A stretch of DNA of 26,562 nt from positions 1 to 26,562 of the IMG/VR virus record IMGVR_UViG_3300047383_000128; one strand, 5' to 3'. The stretch comes from a virus. Under the pieces are notes generated by a model that worked only from the letters and a program-made list of their open reading frames with translations, ran no database searches and had not been told where the DNA came from. How positions within the stretch are numbered: position 1 is the stretch's first letter; each line of letters opens with the position of its first letter. This document shows positions 13,588-26,562 of the stretch, in pieces. Both the position numbers and the translations under genes were made by a program.

Positions 13588-15416
13588 TAGTATCCAAACT
13601 CCGAATCAACGGGTGTATATGCCTGTTCCATTCTTAGATTTCTAAACTGACTAAAGATATCATTGACTTTAGGCCGTGACATAATTAAGTAGCGTAACGC
13701 ATCATAAGCGTGATCAGGTGCATTTGTATTAACATCTTCTGGGTTAGATCTGTCCAGAGGAAGACTTTGGAGTTCACGTATCAAGTTGGGACAGCTATTA
13801 AATATCTGTATCTTAGGTCTGCCACTTGGTTGCACTCTCAAGTATTCGTGGATTTGTATCTTACCTTGTATTCTATTTTTATCTGCTCTACGCAATTTAT
13901 GCCCTGCTCGTTGAAGTGTCTCTCCAACTGTAGGGCCTGTAGTACCTGTTCTGTTCCATGCCGCTGTATCAAGTACTCCCGACACAGAGTAAGGGTCTGT
14001 TAGCTCCATGTTCGTAATCATCTGAGCTAAATCAACACCTGTCAGTCCTTTCCGATAAAGTTCCCTATATATAATAAGTGTACCGTCAGAGGGATCAACA
14101 GTGCCCCAAACACAAGCAGATTCTGAAGCGTATCCGTAGTCAATTCCTTTCACCCTTTCCCAGCCTACTGGGATTTCAAATGGTGTTATAACGTGCTCCA
14201 TTACATCAAACTCTGTAAAGGCAGCACCTTCTGTAACATCCCAGTTACCTTCTAGAAGCTGCTTACGCTGTACCGCTGGTAGAGCTTTAAGCATCTGCTC
14301 ATACCTACCATCTGTAGACAGGTACGGGTTATCTTCTAGACGGGCTGGTATGAAACGTCGTGTCAAACCATCATGACCTGTAAAGCTCTCATTAGGCTCT
14401 GATGGGTTCACATAACGCTTCTTTACCCATGTTGCACCAGCACCCCCGGGGTTAGCTGTACAACGCATGTACGGCGTAATCTCAGGGTCTGTAGTACGCA
14501 GTCGTGATGCTAGGTAGTTCCAAGAAAACTCTGTTGATAGGTGAGTAATCTCATCGAAACCGATCCAACTATAAGCTTGTCCCTGATAGCGATAGACATC
14601 TGCATCTCTTTCAAGGAAGCCAAACTCTAGTTTAGCACCACTAGGGAATGTCCAGATCTTTTCAACTTCTCTAAACCTGCATCCCGGAAAAGCCTTCGGG
14701 TATAACTCCCTAGACTTATCTATAAGTTCCCTCAGTTCAGGCATGGAGCGTCTTAATATCAACGCTCTGTGGGCAGCCCTGTGGGCGAATCTGAGGGGAT
14801 CTACGAGCATAGCATAGGACTTACCACCCCCTGCTGCGCCACCATACAATACGTCCGTCTCTGGAGCCGCTAGAAAGTCTGTTTGCGGCCCATCATTAGG
14901 CTTAAAGATAATCTTGTCATCTACTATCTCCTTTGTACTAGGAGTTAACAGATCAAGTTCATCCTCTGTTAAAATCTTACCTTCAGTTGTAGAGGCATCT
15001 AAAGCCTCATCTAACTTAGATTGTACTTTTGTCTGCTGGTTTAGTGTAGCCTTAGCAGACTTCAACTTCTTGTCAAGGGCTTCTATACGGCGCTGCTTGT
15101 CCTTTACAGACCTTCTAGCAGCCATCTTAGCCTTTTCTTTCTTACTGTAACGATATTTAGGAGATTGTCCTCTATCCTCTCTTTCCTGCTTTACATGGTT
15201 AGAGAGAGTTTGTACCGATACCTTGTAGCCCTTAGACTCTATAAACAATCTACCTTCACGGATAGATTTATACTTACCATCAACAATACCTTCTACAACC
15301 TCTTTGAGTACTTTGTAGACTTTATCATTGCGTACAAATAGCTTACTCTCTGGATCTGCATCGTATGCAAATGGAGCAACACCCTGTGTACGGGGTTTAG
15401 TCTTGGGTAACTTCAT
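13587..15416 (-). CDS. terL: Terminase large subunit
   Basis: The packaging motor ATPase/nuclease. Counting from an in-frame GTG six bases upstream (611 residues), the Walker A motif GGAAGGGKS lies at 194-202, Walker B IGFDE at 287-291 and the coupling motif TANPGG just after residue 322. The RuvC-like nuclease has acidic residues in GIDYGYA (D428), LDTAAW (D485) and HAYDALRY (D574). The first ~170 residues are an extra N-terminal region: an HTH-like part (SVQTLSNHVKQE) and a long basic coiled coil, unusual for this family. I prefer ATG 15416 because AAGGTG lies just upstream; GTG 15422 is the alternative. It overlaps the small terminase gene by about 20 bases and the portal by one. Confidence 0.93.
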   Translation of the reverse strand: MKLPKTKPRTQGVAPFAYDADPESKLFVRNDKVYKVLKEVVEGIVDGKYKSIREGRLFIESKGYKVSVQTLSNHVKQEREDRGQSPKYRYSKKEKAKMAARRSVKDKQRRIEALDKKLKSAKATLNQQTKVQSKLDEALDASTTEGKILTEDELDLLTPSTKEIVDDKIIFKPNDGPQTDFLAAPETDVLYGGAAGGGKSYAMLVDPLRFAHRAAHRALILRRSMPELRELIDKSRELYPKAFPGCRFREVEKIWTFPSGAKLEFGFLERDADVYRYQGQAYSWIGFDEITHLSTEFSWNYLASRLRTTDPEITPYMRCTANPGGAGATWVKKRYVNPSEPNESFTGHDGLTRRFIPARLEDNPYLSTDGRYEQMLKALPAVQRKQLLEGNWDVTEGAAFTEFDVMEHVITPFEIPVGWERVKGIDYGYASESACVWGTVDPSDGTLIIYRELYRKGLTGVDLAQMITNMELTDPYSVSGVLDTAAWNRTGTTGPTVGETLQRAGHKLRRADKNRIQGKIQIHEYLRVQPSGRPKIQIFNSCPNLIRELQSLPLDRSNPEDVNTNAPDHAYDALRYLIMSRPKVNDIFSQFRNLRMEQAYTPVDSEFGY

Positions 15417-15819
15417 ACTCACCTTCTACAACAGTCTTAGCAGGAAGTATGAATAAAGCGCCACCCTCTGACTCAACATTAACCTCTAGTCTATCTTGCT
15501 TACCTAAACCAGTGCGATCCAATATCGTTTGAGCAGCTTGTAACTTTACATTAGCTTGAGGCATAGGATCATCTGAATCTAATACCTGTACAAGCTTCAT
15601 AGCTGCCTTGGGTGCAGACTGAGCAAGTATATGAGAGGCCAGTTCTATTATTTCATTTTTAAGTGATTTAACTACTTGAGAATAGCTACCTTCGGCATAA
15701 CCTGCTAGTTCCGCTGCGTATTTTGGATCACCTCCCGTTTGGATTAGACAGTCCAAGAACTTCTGTTGCTTTTCTGTTAGCTCGCGTTCTTTGGATGTTT
15801 GAGGTAAATAAGCATTCAT
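15397..15819 (-). CDS. terS: Terminase small subunit
   Basis: A 140-residue protein immediately before the large terminase. LTEKQQKFLDCLIQTGGDPKYAAELAGY (residues ~15-42) is the terminase-small HTH opening, in which the subunit recognises packaging-site DNA. The rest is helical (AAMKLVQVLDSDD; AAQTILDRTGLG), with a beta-type tail. The gene is first in the leftward operon. No ribosome-binding site precedes the ATG at 15819; instead a near-perfect sigma-70 promoter lies so close that the RNA would start about two bases before the ATG, which suggests leaderless translation. Confidence 0.87.
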   Translation of the reverse strand: MNAYLPQTSKERELTEKQQKFLDCLIQTGGDPKYAAELAGYAEGSYSQVVKSLKNEIIELASHILAQSAPKAAMKLVQVLDSDDPMPQANVKLQAAQTILDRTGLGKQDRLEVNVESEGGALFILPAKTVVEGEYEVTQD

Positions 15820-15827
15820 AACAAGAC

Positions 15828-15856
15828 AGTATAGTGTTGTATTGAGGTTTTGTCAA
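15828..15856 (-). promoter_or_regulatory. Leftward sigma-70 promoter for the late operon
   Basis: On the minus strand TTGACA (15856-15851), a 17-base spacer and TATACT (15833-15828) form a near-consensus sigma-70 promoter. The expected RNA start is about 15821, two bases from the small-terminase ATG. It mirrors the rightward promoter at 15885-15913 exactly, with the centre of symmetry at 15870/15871. Confidence 0.88.
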
Positions 15857-15884: not shown

Positions 15885-15913
15885 TTGACAGATTGAGAAT
15901 CTGACACTATACT
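15885..15913 (+). promoter_or_regulatory. Rightward sigma-70 promoter of the hub
   Basis: TTGACA (15885-15890), a 17-base spacer and TATACT (15908-15913) form a near-consensus promoter, with RNA expected from about 15920. Inverted copies of ACTTGACA and ACACTATACT make it the mirror image of the leftward promoter, with an A/T tract between them. Confidence 0.88.
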
Positions 15914-15940: not shown

Positions 15941-15982
15941 ATGTATTATATAGATTTATATATATGTACTTTAAAGCTTTAA
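15941..15982 (+). CDS. Possible 13-residue leader peptide
   Basis: The first ATG on the rightward hub transcript has CGAGGG upstream, the same type of ribosome-binding site as several early genes, and encodes MYYIDLYICTLKL before a TAA. A start-stop pair (ATGTGA at 15996-16001) with GGGAG upstream follows shortly after. It could be a leader peptide or simply a decayed gene start; nothing proves translation. Confidence 0.3.
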   Translation: MYYIDLYICTLKL

Positions 15983-16125
15983 AAGGGAGCCGCAGTATGT
16001 GAAGATACTGTCAAGGTTAGACAACTTGAAAAGCTTTCAAAATGTTTATAATTGTATTACTCCCCACCCCTACCCCCATGGCCACCTGCCCCGCCCCTCA
16101 CAAGCCTCACAAGCTTCACAAGCCC

Positions 16126-16142
16126 TGCAATAATTGTGCCAA
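16126..16142 (-). promoter_or_regulatory. Sigma-54-like promoter, leftward
   Basis: The minus strand reads TTGGCACAATTATTGCA: TGGCAC at -24 and TTGCA at -12, with the diagnostic GG-N10-GC spacing. It points toward the terminase operon. Confidence 0.65.
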
Positions 16143-16171
16143 CAAAAAAGATTTAGAAAAACTTTTAAAAC

Positions 16172-16187
16172 TGGCACGAAGTTTGCA
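16172..16187 (+). promoter_or_regulatory. Sigma-54-like promoter, rightward
   Basis: TGGCACGAAGTTTGCA matches TGGCACG-N4-TTGCA exactly, with GG at 16173-16174 and GC at 16185-16186. Confidence 0.7.
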
Positions 16188-16203
16188 TGGGTTTCAGAAG
16201 CCT

Positions 16204-16220
16204 TGCAAGAATTGTTCCAA
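16204..16220 (-). promoter_or_regulatory. Weaker sigma-54-like site, leftward
   Basis: The minus strand reads TTGGAACAATTCTTGCA. GG-N10-GC is kept, but TGGCAC is TGGAAC. Its surroundings look like a diverged copy of the segment around 16126-16142. Confidence 0.45.
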
Positions 16221-16362
16221 GATTTAAAAGCTTCCGCATATATTCCAAAAACTTCTAAAAAGCTTTCGAGTTATTCCAAAGCTTTGACAATCTTGTGCGC
16301 ACTTTAAAAGGTTTAAAAAGGTTAGCACTTATAACCAAAACTTCTAAAGCTTTTCAAATACT

Positions 16363-16378
16363 TGGCACACTTTATGCA
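16363..16378 (+). promoter_or_regulatory. Sigma-54-like promoter, rightward
   Basis: TTGGCACACTTTATGCA has TGGCAC and correct GG-N10-GC spacing, but ATGCA replaces TTGCA. It starts about ten bases after an AAAGCTTT palindrome. Confidence 0.5.
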
Positions 16379-16404
16379 ATGTCCCATACCCTCAAAATCC
16401 ACCA

Positions 16405-16421
16405 TGCAATAACCATGCCAA
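16405..16421 (-). promoter_or_regulatory. Sigma-54-like promoter, leftward
   Basis: The minus strand reads TTGGCATGGTTATTGCA, matching TGGCAY-N5-TTGC with correct spacing. Its -24 side abuts the AAAGCTTT palindrome at 16420-16427. Confidence 0.6.
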
Positions 16422-16587
16422 AGCTTTAAAAGGTACTGTATGTTTGTTCAGTACTGTATAGGCATCCACATCCTGAGAGTTTCTATTTTTAAGTTTAAGA
16501 TGCCCTTTAATTACCCCAATGCATTGCCTAGGGACTATTTTTAGCCCTGAGAATGGCCCCTCGAAAGCCTGAGAGCATTTTTAGACT

Positions 16588-16603
16588 TGGCACGATTGTT
16601 GCT
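16588..16603 (+). promoter_or_regulatory. Sigma-54-like promoter, rightward
   Basis: TGGCACGATTGTTGCT is an exact TGGCACG-N4-TTGC match, with GG at 16589-16590 and GC at 16601-16602. It forms a tandem with the next site 38 bases on. Confidence 0.7.
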
Positions 16604-16625
16604 TGGTAGTGGTTACTCCGCTAGT

Positions 16626-16641
16626 TGGCACGATATTTGCA
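16626..16641 (+). promoter_or_regulatory. Sigma-54-like promoter, rightward
   Basis: TGGCACGATATTTGCA is an exact match with GG-N10-GC spacing. The start site would be near 16653, just ahead of the hairpin-rich segment that ends in the terminator at 17411-17445. Confidence 0.72.
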
Positions 16642-16749
16642 TACCTAAAACAAACCTACTCTGTAACAAACTGTTACAATTTATAACACTTTAGAAATAC
16701 TTATTTTGTTTTATTTGCTATTCTCTACCCATCGCTTCAACGGCGATGC

Positions 16750-16772
16750 GGCCCAGTAGAAATGCACTGCCC
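16750..16772. repeat. 23-base duplicated hairpin element, copy 1
   Basis: It begins GGCCCAGTAGAAATGC and ends ACTGCCC, identical to copy 2 at 17131-17153. CAGT and ACTG inside can pair, and the flanks GATG (16745-16748) and CATC (16775-16778) are complementary. Confidence 0.8.
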
Positions 16773-17130
16773 GACATCACCCGCGAGCGATTCAACCGTG
16801 CAAGTGCGGGTAGCATTGTGCAAGTGCTGGTGCGGTTGGGTTATGGTAGATAGATTCCTTGCCGCGTAGATTCGCCAGAATCGCGCAGCAAGTAACAAGC
16901 GGCACGCCACTGGTATTTTTGCCAAGTGAAAAAACCAATACTTTGTATTGTATGTCGAGTTCTTGGATCTATCGAGAGCGACCCAACTGCCCAGAAACTG
17001 CCCAACATACAGCGCAACACTTTGCCCGAGCCGTTACGTGATTAGCGGCTAGACTATGAGAGGTTAAGCGTCCCGATAGGTGACGTATGCCGCGAGGTTA
17101 TCTCTCTCTCTATATATCCAAAATGTACTA

Positions 17131-17153
17131 GGCCCAGTAGAAATGCACTGCCC
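17131..17153. repeat. 23-base duplicated hairpin element, copy 2
   Basis: Identical to 16750-16772. Here the flanks give ACTAGG (17127-17132) pairing with CCTAGT (17152-17157), so the outer stem has a different sequence but is kept. Confidence 0.8.
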
Positions 17154-17410
17154 TAGTCTGATTCTGCTACCGGCTGGCGCTGGTTTGCGGATTCCCTTGC
17201 GGGTATTGTCGAGCGTGAAGTAGTCGAAGTCCGAGCGGAGTGAGAGCCGCACGGAATGCGCCCTGAGTGCGCGGGTAATAGAGGCAACTATTACTTTTAC
17301 ACTCAAACACAGATTGCGCCACCCTAGCCTATGGCACTTTAAACCGTGCATATCATATACAGTGGTCACCAGCGTCGAGAGTAATCTGGAAAATTTATTT
17401 TTATAACCTG

Positions 17411-17445
17411 AAAGGGCTTGACAATTGTGTCAGGCCCTTTTTTTT
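17411..17445 (+). terminator. Strong intrinsic terminator ending the hub
   Basis: AAAGGGC-T-TGACA (17411-17423) pairs with TGTCA-G-GCCCTTT (17428-17440), a 13-pair stem with one T-G pair and an ATTG loop, followed by eight T (17438-17445). It lies 58 bases before the first early gene and would stop RNAs from the hub promoters unless they are antiterminated. Confidence 0.88.
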
Positions 17446-17503
17446 GGTTTTCATTATGCTGTCAATTCCGACGGCATAACCACAGACCAAAACCGAGGGT
17501 ACT

Positions 17504-17953
17504 ATGATAAATTCAAATAAAAAACTATCAAACGCGCTTCAGCGAATCAGTAAAGAAAACGTGGCGAGTGTACTACTTGATGCGGAGACTTTTGCAGTTT
17601 CTCAATTGTTGGAGCATCGCAACACGTCGCCACTAGCAACAATCGCAACGGCACTGGGCAACATTGCTGGCAAGCCATACGGTTTGTCGCCAAAGCAATA
17701 TGTCGAGCATTACGAAGCGATGGGGCTTGTATGGGATAAGAAAAAATCATCGTTTAGTATTGGCAAGGATGCTAATTTTGCCGAGGCTCCGGTAGGTTAC
17801 TGGGTAGGAATGGAACGCCCAGTGAATAATGAGTCTGATAGTGAAAAGGCAACAAAGGCATTCGCACGAATCGCCAAGTCTGAACTAACACTGACTCAGG
17901 CTATCGCACTGTTGCAAAATGCCTACCAGACTGATCTTAAAGTAGCAGCATAG
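17504..17953 (+). CDS. Hypothetical early protein, 149 aa
   Basis: First gene of the rightward block. ATG 17504 has GAGGG upstream. The product starts MINSNKKLSNALQRISKENV and appears mostly helical, with a glycine-bearing central part (ATALGNIAGKPYGLSPKQYV) and a polar C-terminus ending in NAYQTDLKVAA. There is no signal peptide, membrane segment or recognised motif. Codon use resembles the following genes. It lies between the hub terminator and the five-copy repeat stretch, so it may be under special early control. A host-takeover role is only a guess from position. Confidence 0.75.
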   Translation: MINSNKKLSNALQRISKENVASVLLDAETFAVSQLLEHRNTSPLATIATALGNIAGKPYGLSPKQYVEHYEAMGLVWDKKKSSFSIGKDANFAEAPVGYWVGMERPVNNESDSEKATKAFARIAKSELTLTQAIALLQNAYQTDLKVAA

Positions 17954-18040
17954 CATCATACTCAGCCCATGCTAGTATATGGTGGGCTGGACTATGGTTC
18001 TATTTCAATACCAGCGTTTCTCTCCGGCGCTGGGAACCAT

Positions 18041-18066
18041 CCTTGCCACGATGTAAAACTTGCTCG
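18041..18066 (+). repeat. Early hairpin repeat, degenerate copy 1
   Basis: CCTTGCCACGATGTAAAACT followed by TGCTCG keeps the order of the family motif (CC-TGAGCA-ATG-TAAAC-TGCTC) but has lost most of the left arm. Confidence 0.4.
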
Positions 18067-18072
18067 ATGCGT

Positions 18073-18099
18073 CCTGAGTATGACGAGAAAAACTGCTCA
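18073..18099 (+). repeat. Early hairpin repeat, copy 2
   Basis: TGAGTA (18075-18080) and TGCTCA (18094-18099) flank a 13-base loop. One T-G pair replaces C-G in the stem. Confidence 0.6.
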
Positions 18100-18218
18100 C
18101 GATTTTAGCGGCAGGGCGGGACAAGTATGACTGTAAATCATATTCCTCTGGACTCCTAGGCTGTTTGCCGTGGCTCTGGTGTGACTTGATGGATCACTAC
18201 CCACGAACTGCTGCGCGT

Positions 18219-18243
18219 CCTTGACATGACGTTAAACTGGCAT
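18219..18243 (+). repeat. Early hairpin repeat, copy 3
   Basis: CCTTGACATGACGTTAAAC followed by TGGCAT keeps the conserved loop GACGTTAAAC but has weakened arms. It abuts copy 4. Confidence 0.55.
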
Positions 18244-18244
18244 G

Positions 18245-18269
18245 CCTGAGTATGGCGTTAAACTGCTAC
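18245..18269 (+). repeat. Early hairpin repeat, copy 4
   Basis: CCTGAGTATGGCGTTAAAC followed by TGCTAC shares the 11-base loop of copy 5 exactly. Confidence 0.7.
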
Positions 18270-18319
18270 CCTTACGCTGGCGGGGAGTTGCAAATCTCCA
18301 AAGGTATTGGGTCTATCGC

Positions 18320-18350
18320 CCTGAGCATGGCGTTAAACTGCTCATTTTTT
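18320..18350 (+). repeat. Early hairpin repeat, copy 5, followed by T-run
   Basis: TGAGCA (18322-18327), loop TGGCGTTAAAC and TGCTCA (18339-18344) give a perfect six-pair stem. Six T follow, so this copy could also act as a weak terminator or attenuator. Confidence 0.75.
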
Positions 18351-18352
18351 GT

Positions 18353-18382
18353 TTAACAAACGAGGGTAAGTGTATGATCTTA
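18353..18382 (+). repeat. Duplicated ribosome-binding leader, copy 1
   Basis: A 30-base segment containing AACGAGGGTAAGTGTATG is repeated at 18564-18593 with 28 of 30 bases identical. Each copy supplies the start of one gene. Confidence 0.8.
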
Positions 18383-18571
18383 ACTGACACAAGCGGGAAA
18401 CGATGGAAGCTTTATGAGCGGTTGAGCGGTTGGAGGTATCAGATATATCCAAACCACTCACAATTGAATATCGGCAAAGAAGACGGCGATTGTCCGACTA
18501 CTGCCCTAACAATACCTGATCATATTGCAGATAGATGGGTAGCAGGTGAAGTGAGAGTCAAAGTTAACTAA
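18374..18571 (+). CDS. Hypothetical early protein, 65 aa
   Basis: The frame is open further upstream through repeat copies, but ATG 18374 is the credible start because CGAGGGTAAGTGT directly precedes it, and almost the same 30-base leader precedes the next gene. The product starts MILTDTSGKRWKLYERLSGW, looks like a small beta-rich protein (WRYQIYPNHSQLNIG) and ends VAGEVRVKVN. No known domain was recognised. Confidence 0.7.
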   Translation: MILTDTSGKRWKLYERLSGWRYQIYPNHSQLNIGKEDGDCPTTALTIPDHIADRWVAGEVRVKVN

Positions 18572-18593
18572 CGAGGGTAAGTGTATGAACTTA
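18564..18593 (+). repeat. Duplicated ribosome-binding leader, copy 2
   Basis: Second copy of the 30-base leader at 18353-18382. It spans the stop of the preceding gene and the start of the 55-residue gene. Confidence 0.8.
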
Positions 18594-18752
18594 AAAGGTT
18601 TGTCAGACTCACAAGTCCGTGAGTTCGGTTTGAGATATTGGGGAAAAGCAAATAAATCTCAAGGGAGTGTTGCAAAAGATTATTTTATTAGGCAGGGTAT
18701 GGCTTGCCAACTTGAACTTGAACGGCGACACAATTGGAGGAAGGTAAGTTAA
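18585..18752 (+). CDS. Hypothetical small basic protein, 55 aa
   Basis: ATG 18585 follows the duplicated leader with GAGGG. The product starts MNLKGLSDSQVREFGLRYWG and continues NKSQGSVAKDYFIRQGMACQ, ending ERRHNWRKVS. It is basic and probably helical, and its stop overlaps the next start by one base (TAATG). Very short, but the ribosome-binding site and coupling make it likely real. A small DNA- or RNA-binding role is possible; no family recognised. Confidence 0.65.
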   Translation: MNLKGLSDSQVREFGLRYWGKANKSQGSVAKDYFIRQGMACQLELERRHNWRKVS

Positions 18753-19084
18753 TGGATATACATTGCAGATACTGCGGCGAGCCGTGGGATAACGACGAAT
18801 TGCATGACATGGAATCACATATGGGTGAGGCCATGACGTACTTACAGGCAGCAGAGCGATTCAAGGCGCTGGGCTGTAACGCTTTCAGGCCAACTACAGG
18901 TAGGCTTCGTGAAAGGGCTGGACTACCTCCAAAGCCTAGGCACTGTACCGCAGAGCCAATCTTACCGGCTGAGATGCTGCGGCATGTTGCAGACTCTCAG
19001 GACATGTCGGATTATCCCGACGAGTGGCATAGTCCTGAGGATATTGAGTTTATGTTAGAAATAGCAGAGGAAATGTTCGGATGA
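18752..19084 (+). CDS. Small protein with N-terminal CxxC zinc motif, 110 aa
   Basis: The ATG at 18752 overlaps the previous stop by one base and has GGAGGAAGG upstream; a TTG 18 bases earlier is possible but would lie on that site. The N-terminus MDIHCRYCGEPWDNDELHDM contains CxxCGEPWD and His, a metal-binding start seen in small proteins of several phages. The remainder is acidic (DEWHSPEDIEFMLEIAEEMFG). Zinc binding is likely; the function is unknown. Confidence 0.75.
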   Translation: MDIHCRYCGEPWDNDELHDMESHMGEAMTYLQAAERFKALGCNAFRPTTGRLRERAGLPPKPRHCTAEPILPAEMLRHVADSQDMSDYPDEWHSPEDIEFMLEIAEEMFG

Positions 19085-19275
19085 TATTTAAAGAATTAGA
19101 CCTTGACGAGATCAAAAGTTTTAAGGACTGGGCTTGGGATTTTTACAAGGCCGGTGATCCTATTGATGAACTCTGGCACCCAGTTATTCAGGCTGAGTGT
19201 CAGAAGATAAACTCAATCATAAACCAGTGCGAGCAATACGACCATTACGTGGCAACCTTGGAGGATTACGAGTGA
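19081..19275 (+). CDS. Hypothetical acidic protein, 64 aa
   Basis: ATG 19081 overlaps the previous stop by four bases (ATGA), and its own stop overlaps the GTG of the next gene (GTGA). The product begins MIFKELDLDEIKSFKDWAWD and is acidic and helical. No recognised motif. The tight coupling at both ends suggests co-translation with its neighbours. Confidence 0.65.
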   Translation: MIFKELDLDEIKSFKDWAWDFYKAGDPIDELWHPVIQAECQKINSIINQCEQYDHYVATLEDYE

Positions 19276-19964
19276 AACTACTAGACACGACAGGCGGCAA
19301 CGCCAAGCTAAAAAAGAGCGACAAGAGTAGCCAAGAATACCGGCTCGCAGGTTTATCACTCATGCCCGATGACATACTCTGTCCCTATCGGAACGTGGCA
19401 GGCTGCGCTAAGTCTTGCCTAGAGTCGGCAGGCATGGGCGTATTCTCAAACGTCAAGGCTGGCAGGCAACGCAAGTCTGATTGGTGGCACAGTGAGCGGG
19501 CTGGGTTCTTGGATCAGTTACGCAAAGAACTTGGCAACTTCGACAAGCTTTGCAAGCGGCAGGGAGTCAAGGCGGCAGTGCGTCTAAATGTATTGTCGGA
19601 CATACCTTGGGAAAAGCATGGGATACCGCAGGAGTTTCCCGATATTTTCTTCTATGACTACACCAAGAATGCGTCAAGGCTGGGCAAGACTCCGTCTAAC
19701 TATGAGTTGATGTTCTCCTATAGTAACGAGCCGGACTATCAGAAGCATGTCGCTAAGGCTTGGCATACCAATGCGCCTATATCGGTGGTGTTCCGTGGCG
19801 GTATGCCAGAGTATTACAAGGGGCGTAGGGTCATTGATGGCGATGCCTCAGACCTTGTAAACGTCAAGGCTGGTAAGGTTGTTGTCGGGTTGGTAGCCAA
19901 GGGCAAGGCCAAGAAAGATGATGGCAACTTTGTGGTAGATACTAATCTAATCGCAATAGCATAA
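19272..19964 (+). CDS. GP88-family phage protein
   Basis: The preferred start is GTG 19272 (GTGA overlap), giving 230 residues; a longer frame from 19197 would overlap the upstream gene by 79 bases. The product has the features of the GP88 family of phage proteins: a Cys-rich part LCPYRNVAGCAKSCLESAGM (~residues 37-56), then RQRKSDWWHSERAGFL, AVRLNVLSDIPWE and FYDYTKN. The conserved cysteines suggest metal binding, and the C-terminal half has an alternating beta/alpha pattern (VFRGGMPEYYKGRRVIDGD). The family's role is not established. Family match is by recognition of motifs only. Confidence 0.75.
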   Translation: MKLLDTTGGNAKLKKSDKSSQEYRLAGLSLMPDDILCPYRNVAGCAKSCLESAGMGVFSNVKAGRQRKSDWWHSERAGFLDQLRKELGNFDKLCKRQGVKAAVRLNVLSDIPWEKHGIPQEFPDIFFYDYTKNASRLGKTPSNYELMFSYSNEPDYQKHVAKAWHTNAPISVVFRGGMPEYYKGRRVIDGDASDLVNVKAGKVVVGLVAKGKAKKDDGNFVVDTNLIAIA

Positions 19965-22357: not shown

Positions 22358-22834
22358 ATGAATATATTCTACATAGACCCATGCCCTGTAAAGGCTGCAC
22401 AAATGCAGTGCGATAAGCATGTGGTCAAGATGGTTTTAGAATCTGCACAAATGCTCTGTGCTGCTCATCACATTGAGGGTGATGGTAATGTACCTTACAA
22501 ATTGGCTCACAAGAATCACCCCAGTACCGTTTGGGTAAGGGATAGTGCGCCTAATTATAGGTGGCTTTACAGGCATTTTGAGGCCCTCTCAGAGGAGTAT
22601 ACCGATAGGTATGGTAAGGTACATCTTACGTGGGAAAAGTGCCGAGAGCCTCTTAGACACCCTCCTACAGCCCTATCCAGTCCTGAGCTAGGGTGGAAAG
22701 ATCATACACCACCACCTCAGTGTATGCCTGATGAGTGCAAGCGTGAGACTTCACTGGCTGGGTACACTGAGTATTATTTTAATTACAAACCAAAGGTTAT
22801 TGATATGCGTTTCCGAGGAGTTAAGTATGAGTGA
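22358..22834 (+). CDS. Conserved-type phage protein of unknown function, 158 aa
   Basis: Begins MNIFYIDPCPVKAAQMQCDK and continues HVVKMVLESAQMLCAAHH, then KNHPSTVWVRDSAPNYRWLY and PPPQCMPDECK. This combination (QCDKHVVKM, HP-xxWVR, NYxWLYRH, PPPQCMPDE) is a phage family I recognise as widespread in T4- and T7-like phages but without a firmly known role. Several His and Cys residues suggest a metal site. Start has AAGGAA upstream; the end overlaps the HTH gene by eight bases. Confidence 0.75.
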   Translation: MNIFYIDPCPVKAAQMQCDKHVVKMVLESAQMLCAAHHIEGDGNVPYKLAHKNHPSTVWVRDSAPNYRWLYRHFEALSEEYTDRYGKVHLTWEKCREPLRHPPTALSSPELGWKDHTPPPQCMPDECKRETSLAGYTEYYFNYKPKVIDMRFRGVKYE

Positions 22835-24485: not shown

Positions 24486-26150
24486 ATGGCTTTTGTAGAG
24501 ACACATCTAGACTGCCCCACTTGTGGACACAGACAATGTCTTGGTCTTAACGAGGATGGCAGCGCAAAATGTTTTTCATGTGGTGATTATATTAGAAACT
24601 TCAAAGAGGGAGATATGGAACCAACCCCTAGATTGGTAAAAGATAATGTCGTAGTCAGTGAAGGAAACTTCAACAACCTTCGTGACCGTGGGATTAGTGA
24701 GGCTACTGCAAAGAGATACGGCGTTAAGTCCACTGTTAATTCTAATGGTGACATAACACGACACTTCTATCCGTACTACAATGGGTCGGAGGAGGTGGCG
24801 TACAAGACACGCATCGTGGATGGTAAAGGCTTCATAGCTACCGGCCCTATATCAGACTGTGGGTTGTTCGGACAGCAGTTAGTAGGCGACAAGGGTGGCA
24901 AGTACGTTACCCTAGTTGAGGGTGAGTGCGATGCGATGGCAGCCTATGAGTTGCTAGGATCTAAGTGGCCTGTAGTGTCTATTAAGAATGGCGCACAGGG
25001 TGCAGAGAAAGATGTAAAGAATCAGATAGAATTCCTCGAAAGGTTCGACAACATCATCATCTGCTTTGATGCTGACAAACCCGGACAGGAAGCAGCAAAG
25101 AAAGTAGCAAGGCTGTTGAAGCCTAACAAGGCTAAGATCATGGTCATGCCTGACGGCTTCAAGGATGCCAATGATATGCTTCGTAAGAACCAGCATGGCT
25201 CCTATGTTGCTGCGTGGTGGAACGCTAAGACCTACACACCTAGCGGTGTACTCAATGTAAGTCAGAATAAAGACAAGTTCCACAACCGTGTGAAGAAGAA
25301 GGCTATCCCATACCCTTGGGAAGGTTTAAACAAGAAGCTAGAAGGCTTACGTCAGGGTGAGCTTGTGCTACTTGCAGGTGGTACAGGGCTTGGTAAGTCC
25401 AGCGTCACACGCGAATTAGAACACTGGCTTATCAAAGAGACTGATGACAATATCGGTATCGTTGCTCTTGAAGAGGACTGGACACGGACTGTGGATGGTA
25501 TTCTTTCTATCGAAGCTAATGCTAAGTTACACATTGATCGTATACGGGAGGAACACTCAGTAGAGGAATTGAACATTCTGTTTGATGATCTGTTTATTGA
25601 TAACGATAACAATGACAGGGTGTGGATACACGCTCACTTCGGTTCCAATGATATTGATGGTATCTTTTCTAAGCTACGCTACATGATCGTTGGTTGTGAA
25701 TGTAAGTGGGTTGTAATTGATCACCTGCACATGATGGTATCTGCCACATTAGAGGGTGATGAACGTCGCTCTATTGATTCTATCATGACACGCCTTCGCA
25801 GCCTTGCTGAAGAGACGGGCGCTGGTCTTATTCTTGTGTCACACCTTCGTCGTATTGATGGCAATAAGGGACATGAGAAGGGTGCTGAGACAGACCTTAG
25901 CCACCTTAGAGGTAGTCAATCTATCGCTCAGTTGTCGGACTGTGTCATAACTCTTGAGCGTAACCAGCAGGCTGATGACCCTATTGTGGCATCCACCACC
26001 CGTGTCCGTATCCTGAAGTCTAGATACACAGGTGATGTCGGCATCGCTACCTACTTGCAATACGATAAGGATACTGGTAGGCTCCATGAAGTTGATGACT
26101 CAGACATTGACTTTAATCCTGAACAAGAAGATACGCTGGCGTTTGAATGA
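24486..26150 (+). CDS. Fused DNA primase-helicase, T7 gp4-like
   Basis: A 554-residue bifunctional replication protein. N-terminal zinc domain with C10, C13, C29 and C32 (CPTC...CFSC); TOPRIM primase domain with VEGECDAM (E145) and FDAD (D195, D197); linker; then a RecA-type helicase with Walker A GGTGLGKSS (~298-306), Walker B VVIDHLHMM, the SHLRR histidine motif and LRGSQSIAQLSDCVITLERN, matching T7 gp4 closely. It unwinds DNA as a hexamer and makes RNA primers for lagging-strand synthesis (family knowledge). ATG 24486 has GGAGG upstream; the end overlaps the polymerase start by four bases (ATGA). Confidence 0.95.
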   Translation: MAFVETHLDCPTCGHRQCLGLNEDGSAKCFSCGDYIRNFKEGDMEPTPRLVKDNVVVSEGNFNNLRDRGISEATAKRYGVKSTVNSNGDITRHFYPYYNGSEEVAYKTRIVDGKGFIATGPISDCGLFGQQLVGDKGGKYVTLVEGECDAMAAYELLGSKWPVVSIKNGAQGAEKDVKNQIEFLERFDNIIICFDADKPGQEAAKKVARLLKPNKAKIMVMPDGFKDANDMLRKNQHGSYVAAWWNAKTYTPSGVLNVSQNKDKFHNRVKKKAIPYPWEGLNKKLEGLRQGELVLLAGGTGLGKSSVTRELEHWLIKETDDNIGIVALEEDWTRTVDGILSIEANAKLHIDRIREEHSVEELNILFDDLFIDNDNNDRVWIHAHFGSNDIDGIFSKLRYMIVGCECKWVVIDHLHMMVSATLEGDERRSIDSIMTRLRSLAEETGAGLILVSHLRRIDGNKGHEKGAETDLSHLRGSQSIAQLSDCVITLERNQQADDPIVASTTRVRILKSRYTGDVGIATYLQYDKDTGRLHEVDDSDIDFNPEQEDTLAFE

Positions 26151-26562
26151 AGCTATTATTTGACATAGAGACTGACGGACTTGAGTACACAAAGATATGG
26201 TGTCTTGTTGCTAAAGAAGTAAACACTGGTGAGGTCTGGAGCTTTGGGCCTGACGAGATAGAAGAAGGAGTTAAGTTACTAAATAAAGCAGAGCAACTGG
26301 CAGGACATAACATCATTGGTTTTGATATACCTGCCCTAGAAAAGCTCACGTCTTTCAAGCTTGGCAATCAGCAGATCATAGATACCTTGGTGTTGTCTAG
26401 ATTATTTAATCCTGTACGTGAAGGTGGTCACAGCCTTGCGGTATGGGGAGGCAAGCTAGGCTTGGCTAAGATTGAGTTTGATCAGTTTGATTGTTATACA
26501 CCTGAGATGCTTGAGTACTGTGAGCGTGATGTTGGAGTCAACGTCAAGGTTTATAAGGCTTT
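26147..26562 (+). CDS. T7-like DNA polymerase, exonuclease domain (cut by right edge)
   Basis: Only the first 138 residues are in the window. They form the 3'-5' proofreading exonuclease: Exo I DIETDG (D6, E8), Exo II GHNIIGFD (D60), Exo III YCERD (Y124, D128). The segment IDTLVLSRL is identical to the T7 gp5 sequence, and HSLAVWGGKLG parallels T7 HALEAWGYRLG. A family A polymerase domain should follow outside the window. All acidic exonuclease residues are present, so proofreading is likely active. It overlaps the primase-helicase stop by four bases. Confidence 0.9.
   Translation, partial: MKLLFDIETDGLEYTKIWCLVAKEVNTGEVWSFGPDEIEEGVKLLNKAEQLAGHNIIGFDIPALEKLTSFKLGNQQIIDTLVLSRLFNPVREGGHSLAVWGGKLGLAKIEFDQFDCYTPEMLEYCERDVGVNVKVYKA

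Follow-up and report, generated by a model that had tools for sequence, protein, structure and literature searches.

A cluster of sigma-54-type sites in the control hub of a marine podovirus-like phage, with a predicted large structured RNA behind a tandem pair

Results

The phage and its control hub

The window, by which we mean the whole stretch of DNA analysed here, is a 26.6-kb viral contig (IMG/VR IMGVR_UViG_3300047383_000128; 26,562 nt). By its homologous terminase, portal, capsid and primase-helicase, which it has in common with the HMO-2011-type and HTVC103P-type phages (PMC9038755, PMC8528129), the phage is a HMO-2011/HTVC103P-like marine podovirus, and by inference it probably belongs to the 'group IV' genomes of PMC8528129, a group of unknown host. 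Judging by relatives of 52 kb and 54 kb, the window covers about half a genome, and its end may fall inside a possible polymerase gene (26147–26560). The leftward arm carries terminase, portal ('head-tail adaptor'), capsid and tail genes, the rightward arm a gp2.5-like protein and the primase-helicase. A gene for a Gene product 88 family protein (19197–19964; PF17338, E 7.6e-36) and a pyrimidine-dimer DNA glycosylase-like gene (22358–22834; PF03013, E 1.8e-8) are also present. Between the two arms lies a hub of about 1.7 kb without a convincing gene. The hub and the genes on either side comprise the following features, in which L numbers denote loci of other phages and 7/8 means one miss among eight scored positions.

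15397–15819, minus strand: terminase small subunit, whose gene opens the leftward late operon (phrog_2538, E 9.8e-8)
15828–15856, minus strand: sigma-70 promoter motif TTGACA-N17-TATACT, toward the terminase genes
15885–15913, plus strand: sigma-70 promoter motif TTGACA-N17-TATACT, rightward
16126–16141, minus strand: sigma-54-type site TGGCACAATTATTGCA, toward the terminase and late operon; conserved in L263 and L265
16172–16187, plus strand: sigma-54-type site TGGCACGAAGTTTGCA; conserved in L265, removed by a deletion in L127/L263
16204–16219, minus strand: sigma-54-type site TGGAACAATTCTTGCA (7/8), toward the late operon; counterparts TGGCACAATCTTTGCA in L263 and TGGCATGATCTTTGCA in L265
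16363–16378, plus strand: sigma-54-type site TGGCACACTTTATGCA (7/8); absent from L127
16405–16420, minus strand: sigma-54-type site TGGCATGGTTATTGCA; conserved in L263 and L265
16434–16453, no strand assigned: LexA-type SOS box TACTGTATGTTTGTTCAGTA, 13/14 arm positions; 14/14 in several clade-A relatives
16588–16603, plus strand: sigma-54-type site TGGCACGATTGTTGCT, the upstream member of the tandem pair ahead of the RNA; kept in L127, L137/L250 and L265
16626–16641, plus strand: sigma-54-type site TGGCACGATATTTGCA, the downstream member of the same pair; kept in L127, L137/L250 and L265
16652–17445, plus strand: predicted large structured non-coding RNA (type 1), about 790 nt, predicted ends; 219 pairs
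16662–16678, plus strand: palindrome TGTAACA-N3-TGTTACA, either an operator or a hairpin at the 5' end of the RNA; also in L244, near-identical in L148
17410–17445, plus strand: predicted intrinsic terminator at the RNA's 3' end, a 14-bp stem followed by a T run; compensatory changes preserve the stem (helix 30)
17504–17953, plus strand: first rightward protein gene past the RNA, 149 aa, no family match above the cut-off

The divergent sigma-70 pair, both members with the same motif, forms the left edge of the hub. The SOS box conforms to CTG-N10-CAG and reads CTGT-N8-TCAG, one base off the E. coli form CTGT-N8-ACAG; it is a candidate binding site for LexA. It is kept in L125, L261, L262 and L268, all of which lack sigma-54 sites. 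No such box was present in the clade-B hubs scanned, and among isolates a single weaker match occurred, in CRP-738. In the search for an enhancer-binding activator site near the sigma-54 sites only repeats and palindromes were seen, with the TGTAACA palindrome and repeats like AAAGCTTT as candidates for such sites. Repeats resembling AAAGCTTT or CTTTTAAAAG are scattered among the sigma-54 sites at 15973–16433, and each relative has its own repeat family; they may be activator sites, an origin, or neither. A conserved C-rich tract (16062–16097, core GGCCACCTGCCC) lies at the same place in relatives; it is G-rich on the minus strand, where a G-quadruplex is possible.

Sigma-54-type sites in the hub

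Seven GG-N10-GC sites had been reported for positions 16126 to 16641 in an earlier note on this DNA, and all of them, four rightward and three leftward, lie where that note placed them. Three read exactly TGGCACG-N4-TTGC, as it had said. All eight further scored positions are matched by five of the seven sites, while the remaining two miss one each, the leftward site TGGAACAATTCTTGCA being a single base off. If the C of the GC is counted as -12 (C16640 for the second site of the tandem pair), the predicted transcription starts of this pair are 16614 and about 16652.

Under a near-strict criterion, with GG-N10-GC fixed and at least seven of the eight other consensus positions matched, the window contains seven sites, every one inside the hub; the dinucleotide-shuffled hub gave a mean of 0.03 and a maximum of 1 in 500 shuffles. 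The strict pattern TGGCAYR-N4-WTGCW was found six times, again only in the hub (expected 0.077 in the window and 0.0035 in the hub). These figures bear out the consensus fit, the diagnostic spacing and the far-above-chance clustering that had been claimed. The accompanying statement that no sites occur elsewhere is correct for good matches and limited to them, because sequences two mismatches from TGGCAC-N5-TTGC are near background in the window (38 found, 23 expected). The leftward sites do face the terminase and late operon. For the rightward sites, which had been assigned to the early block, the orientation stands, but the two best ones (16588 and 16626) front a structured non-coding region of about 790 nt with a terminator and not an early protein gene.

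Conservation in relatives

Relatives were gathered with the large terminase as query, and those of clade A can mostly be aligned over the whole protein. Clade A has sigma-54-type sites in the same hub and in both directions, at shifting positions. The 34 clade-A hubs (31 kb) contain 50 sites at the 10-base spacing, which are not all independent since some of the hubs are mutually close; the same hubs have none at spacings of 6–9 or 11–13 and three at 14, and the neighbouring DNA, 166 kb that is largely coding, has none at spacing 10. Conservation in the same hub, a check set beforehand, was confirmed, and neither shuffled nor coding DNA reached the site density of the hub. A gapped-word search ranked TGGC-N8-TGCA first, in 20 of 20 hubs compared to 0.33 in shuffles, a result that is partly circular because these hubs were chosen for having sites. 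In a profile of 66 distinct sites, T or C occupies the unscored position before TGG in 94%, as in the sigma-54 consensus. The 17 RNA-proximal sites share an unvarying TTGGCA, G after Y, and TGC; two positions of their four-base spacer vary freely, and the other two are T only or A/T.

The sister clade B (30 hubs) has no sigma-54-type site. That clade B is simply a group of SAR11 phages was considered and dropped, since ten sampled loci have a GC content of 37–41%, above the 30.8–34.0% of HTVC103P-type genomes (PMC8528129). HTVC115P, CRP-3 and HMO-2011 differ from the present phage by having no match to the sigma-54 pattern across the whole record, and the terminase regions of further roseophages gave none at a comparable place.

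The terminases of L124–L126 are 98–99% identical to that of the window, and their DNA is 96–98% identical up to about 16055 and divergent after it; these relatives have neither a sigma-54 site nor the RNA, whose place in L124 is taken by protein-coding sequence. The three loci match the window again from about 19272, with mostly unrelated DNA in between, as in a module exchange spanning 16055–19272. Sites and RNA are therefore absent together in close relatives, yet the two also occur apart: in L130, L259, L264 and L266 the sites stand before a protein gene rather than the RNA, and the RNA-like region of L244 is accompanied by a leftward site alone, with no good rightward one. The idea that the sites exist solely to drive the RNA was dropped because of the former four loci.

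A large structured RNA behind the tandem pair

The tandem pair fronts what is, as predicted from its fold and covariation, a previously undescribed large non-coding RNA. The region of about 790 nt folds far better than its shuffles (z = -5.4, 20 shuffles). On three sequences, the type 1 structure has 97.1% of its 219 pairs paired, and 30 pairs changed on both sides compared to 10.7 in shuffles and 1–6 in slid controls, in which the pairing partners were shifted by 1–3 columns. Because no more than about two of these sequences are well separated, and because slid controls are biased towards a structure that comes from their own alignment, the weight rests on the compensatory pairs. L137, which lies on the same contig as L250, retains the tandem pair, the RNA and the terminator, with about 77% identity in this region, in a hub whose other parts barely align. 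Inside the RNA, 23 bases (GGCCCAGTAGAAATGCACTGCCC) are repeated exactly (16750–16772 and 17131–17153), both copies in hairpins; in L250 the loop of the second copy is altered and the stem kept.

L309 carries a distant relative of the type 1 RNA, and a tRNA gene lies near the RNA in both L250 and L309. A second RNA type occupies the same place in L249, L252, L253 and L243, usually behind a rightward sigma-54 site; 17 of its 61 pairs show compensatory change, on few independent sequences. For neither RNA did Rfam contain a family at the gathering cut-off, a relaxed search giving chance-level matches only, and BLAST of both types against 50,697 phage records returned no match. A scan with the type 2 motif AGTTGGGGTACTGCYC yielded mostly chance matches.

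Similar sites in other phages

Viral contigs were scanned for two TGGCACG-N4-TTGC sites 12–42 bp apart. This tandem scan returned at least 120 stretches (L004–L123) and the N5-spacing control one, with an estimated chance expectation of about 0.15 for either pattern; the feature is not confined to this phage. The single control match, L315:12901-13156, consists of two tandem pairs in one contig and is perhaps another repeat. A looser pattern was present in 25 of 30 whole records and its reversed control twice in total, figures that measure the specificity of the motif and not its frequency, as most of the 30 were picked by the tandem scan. The matching contigs range in GC from 0.35 to 0.67 and show little protein similarity to this phage. 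Many of these phages, for example L057, L066 and L070, have dense alternating arrays with facing sites 1–5 bp apart, and tandem sites are commonly 10–13 bp apart. The contigs of L004, L020 and L023 have their sites spaced out across kilobases, for the most part on a single strand, as though several genes were served. Next to the array of L018 lie a G-rich tract and a sigma-70-like promoter, an arrangement also seen in the present hub, and G-rich tracts flank the arrays of both L018 and L070. No sites occur in the isolates CHOED, Slicky01 and MQM1, which were examined as potential cultured models.

Discussion

Regulatory RNAs with sigma-54 promoters are known from bacteria, such as Qrr of Vibrio and CrcZ of Pseudomonas. 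The hub sites resemble bacterial sigma-54 (RpoN) promoters in having GG at -24 and GC at -12 with ten bases between them, in the full consensus, and in a position directly before a non-coding RNA gene. They differ in lying in a phage, clustered and in both directions, with candidate activator sites only; moreover, Qrr is far smaller and less structured than the phage RNA. To our knowledge, sigma-54-type sites have not been described ahead of the phage-borne GOLLD, ROOL or ICP1 RNAs, which the present RNA resembles in its length of about 800 nt, its elaborate predicted fold and, in the relatives L250 and L309, the tRNA gene close by, but it matches neither GOLLD or ROOL nor any other Rfam family. 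The ICP1 transcript is about 800 nt long (PMC7567579). In common with LexA-controlled SOS promoters the hub has an E. coli-type CTG-N10-CAG palindrome, perfect in several relatives, but here the box stands beside sigma-54-type sites and has one mismatch in the phage's own copy, and LexA is a putative regulator.

We consider it probable that the hub is a promoter cluster for host RNA polymerase carrying sigma-54. The holoenzyme would bind the hub sites as closed complexes, and a host enhancer-binding activator would be needed for transcription to start. From the rightward tandem pair a dedicated structured RNA would be made that ends at the terminator, while the leftward sites would direct transcription across the divergent sigma-70 pair to the terminase and late operon. 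LexA at the SOS box may add DNA damage as a further input. Sigma-54 closed complexes require an ATP-driven activator (PMC3844500), so the output would follow a host signal. PspF, the phage-shock activator, is an attractive candidate because the phage-shock response is sigma-54 controlled (PMC3844500). A tie to nitrogen or stress activators of the host, as suggested in the earlier note, is conjectural. Neither RpoN nor an activator is encoded in the 8 plus 49 phage records searched; in the larger set, 0 of 49 records had the DNA-binding domain of RpoN or an activator domain for sigma-54, and the activator search is a permissive one, positive in all 14 control genomes. This implies host sigma-54, and the timing would then depend on host signals, possibly on stress brought about by the infection itself.

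RpoN is common among Gammaproteobacteria. The E. coli LexA motif is CTGT-N8-ACAG, that of Alphaproteobacteria GTTC-N7-GTTC (PMC8565304). The tRNA-Tyr of the RNA-bearing L250 has 88–89% identity with the closest tRNAs of 369 Gammaproteobacteria, compared to 81% with the best full-length match from 190 Alphaproteobacteria. Together, the LexA-type box and this tRNA suggest a gammaproteobacterial host, a class label that rests on a MAG named SAR86. Assignment of the host by MAG binning (Sphingobacteriales, Maricaulis, SAR86) was rejected as too weak.

The promoter reading is supported by the clustering, spacing and conservation of the sites, by the compensatory changes in the RNA, by the joint absence of sites and RNA in L124–L126, by the contrast between N4 and N5 spacings in the tandem scan, and by L137, which kept the tandem pair, RNA and terminator in an otherwise unalignable hub. 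It is weakened by the facing, closely spaced sites of other phages, which would be odd for promoters, and by the uncoupling of sites and RNA in L130, L259, L264, L266 and L244. The full footprint of a sigma-54 holoenzyme exceeds gaps of 1–5 bp and 10–13 bp, and arrays tighter than this footprint, as well as hub sites in both orientations that partly face each other, would suit true sigma-54 sites acting mainly as a sponge or roadblock, in which phage DNA would retain sigma-54, by itself or as part of inactive closed complexes, and so damp host sigma-54 responses or stop read-through of the hub. About seven sites in the window are few for titration, however, and the rightward pair lies directly ahead of an RNA with a terminator and is retained there as the rest of the hub changes; we regard this explanation as unlikely, though it is the strongest of the alternatives. 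Ranked below it, as rather improbable, is an accidental likeness of the motif to sigma-54 sites, the true ligand being another phage or host protein at origin iterons or a repressor operator. The leftward triplets of L260 and L266, at exactly 29-bp spacing and with identity reaching past the motif, and the A+T-rich, repetitive, origin-like character of a hub beside a G-rich tract would fit this. Yet the whole sigma-54 consensus is reproduced, including its degenerate positions and the 10-base spacing, the motif recurs in contigs of widely different GC with little protein similarity, and unlike iterons the sites of several other phages extend over kilobases.

If the tandem pair is real, the region behind it could also be a long structured leader of a rightward early transcript, with the terminator as attenuator. 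The first protein gene starts about 60 bases past the terminator and the sigma-70 promoter at 15885 could read through the same region, but with its 14 pairs and T run the terminator is a strong one, the region is far longer than usual leaders and relatives swap it as a block, so that we give this version very little credence. As to chance or a base-composition artefact, two-mismatch matches do occur near the background rate, but six strict sites were found in a hub where 0.0035 were expected, they are conserved in relatives, and wrong-spacing and reversed controls are near zero; such an origin is hardly conceivable.

Beyond the single phage, we tentatively suggest, as a possibility that we hold with much less confidence than the promoter role of the hub, that diverse phages use arrays of host sigma-54 sites to sense or sequester the host's stress sigma factor, for example via PspF, and that in this marine clade such sites drive a new family of giant RNAs. 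If sigma-54 control is true, phage expression would be conditional on an ATP-driven activator of the host; in the open-access literature we found neither a phage precedent for this nor a report of sigma-54 arrays in phages. The comparison of N4 and N5 spacings suggests a spread among uncultured phages, so a general coupling of phages to the state of the host may have been overlooked, and the large new structured phage RNA, with its predicted promoter and terminator, lends itself to direct testing.
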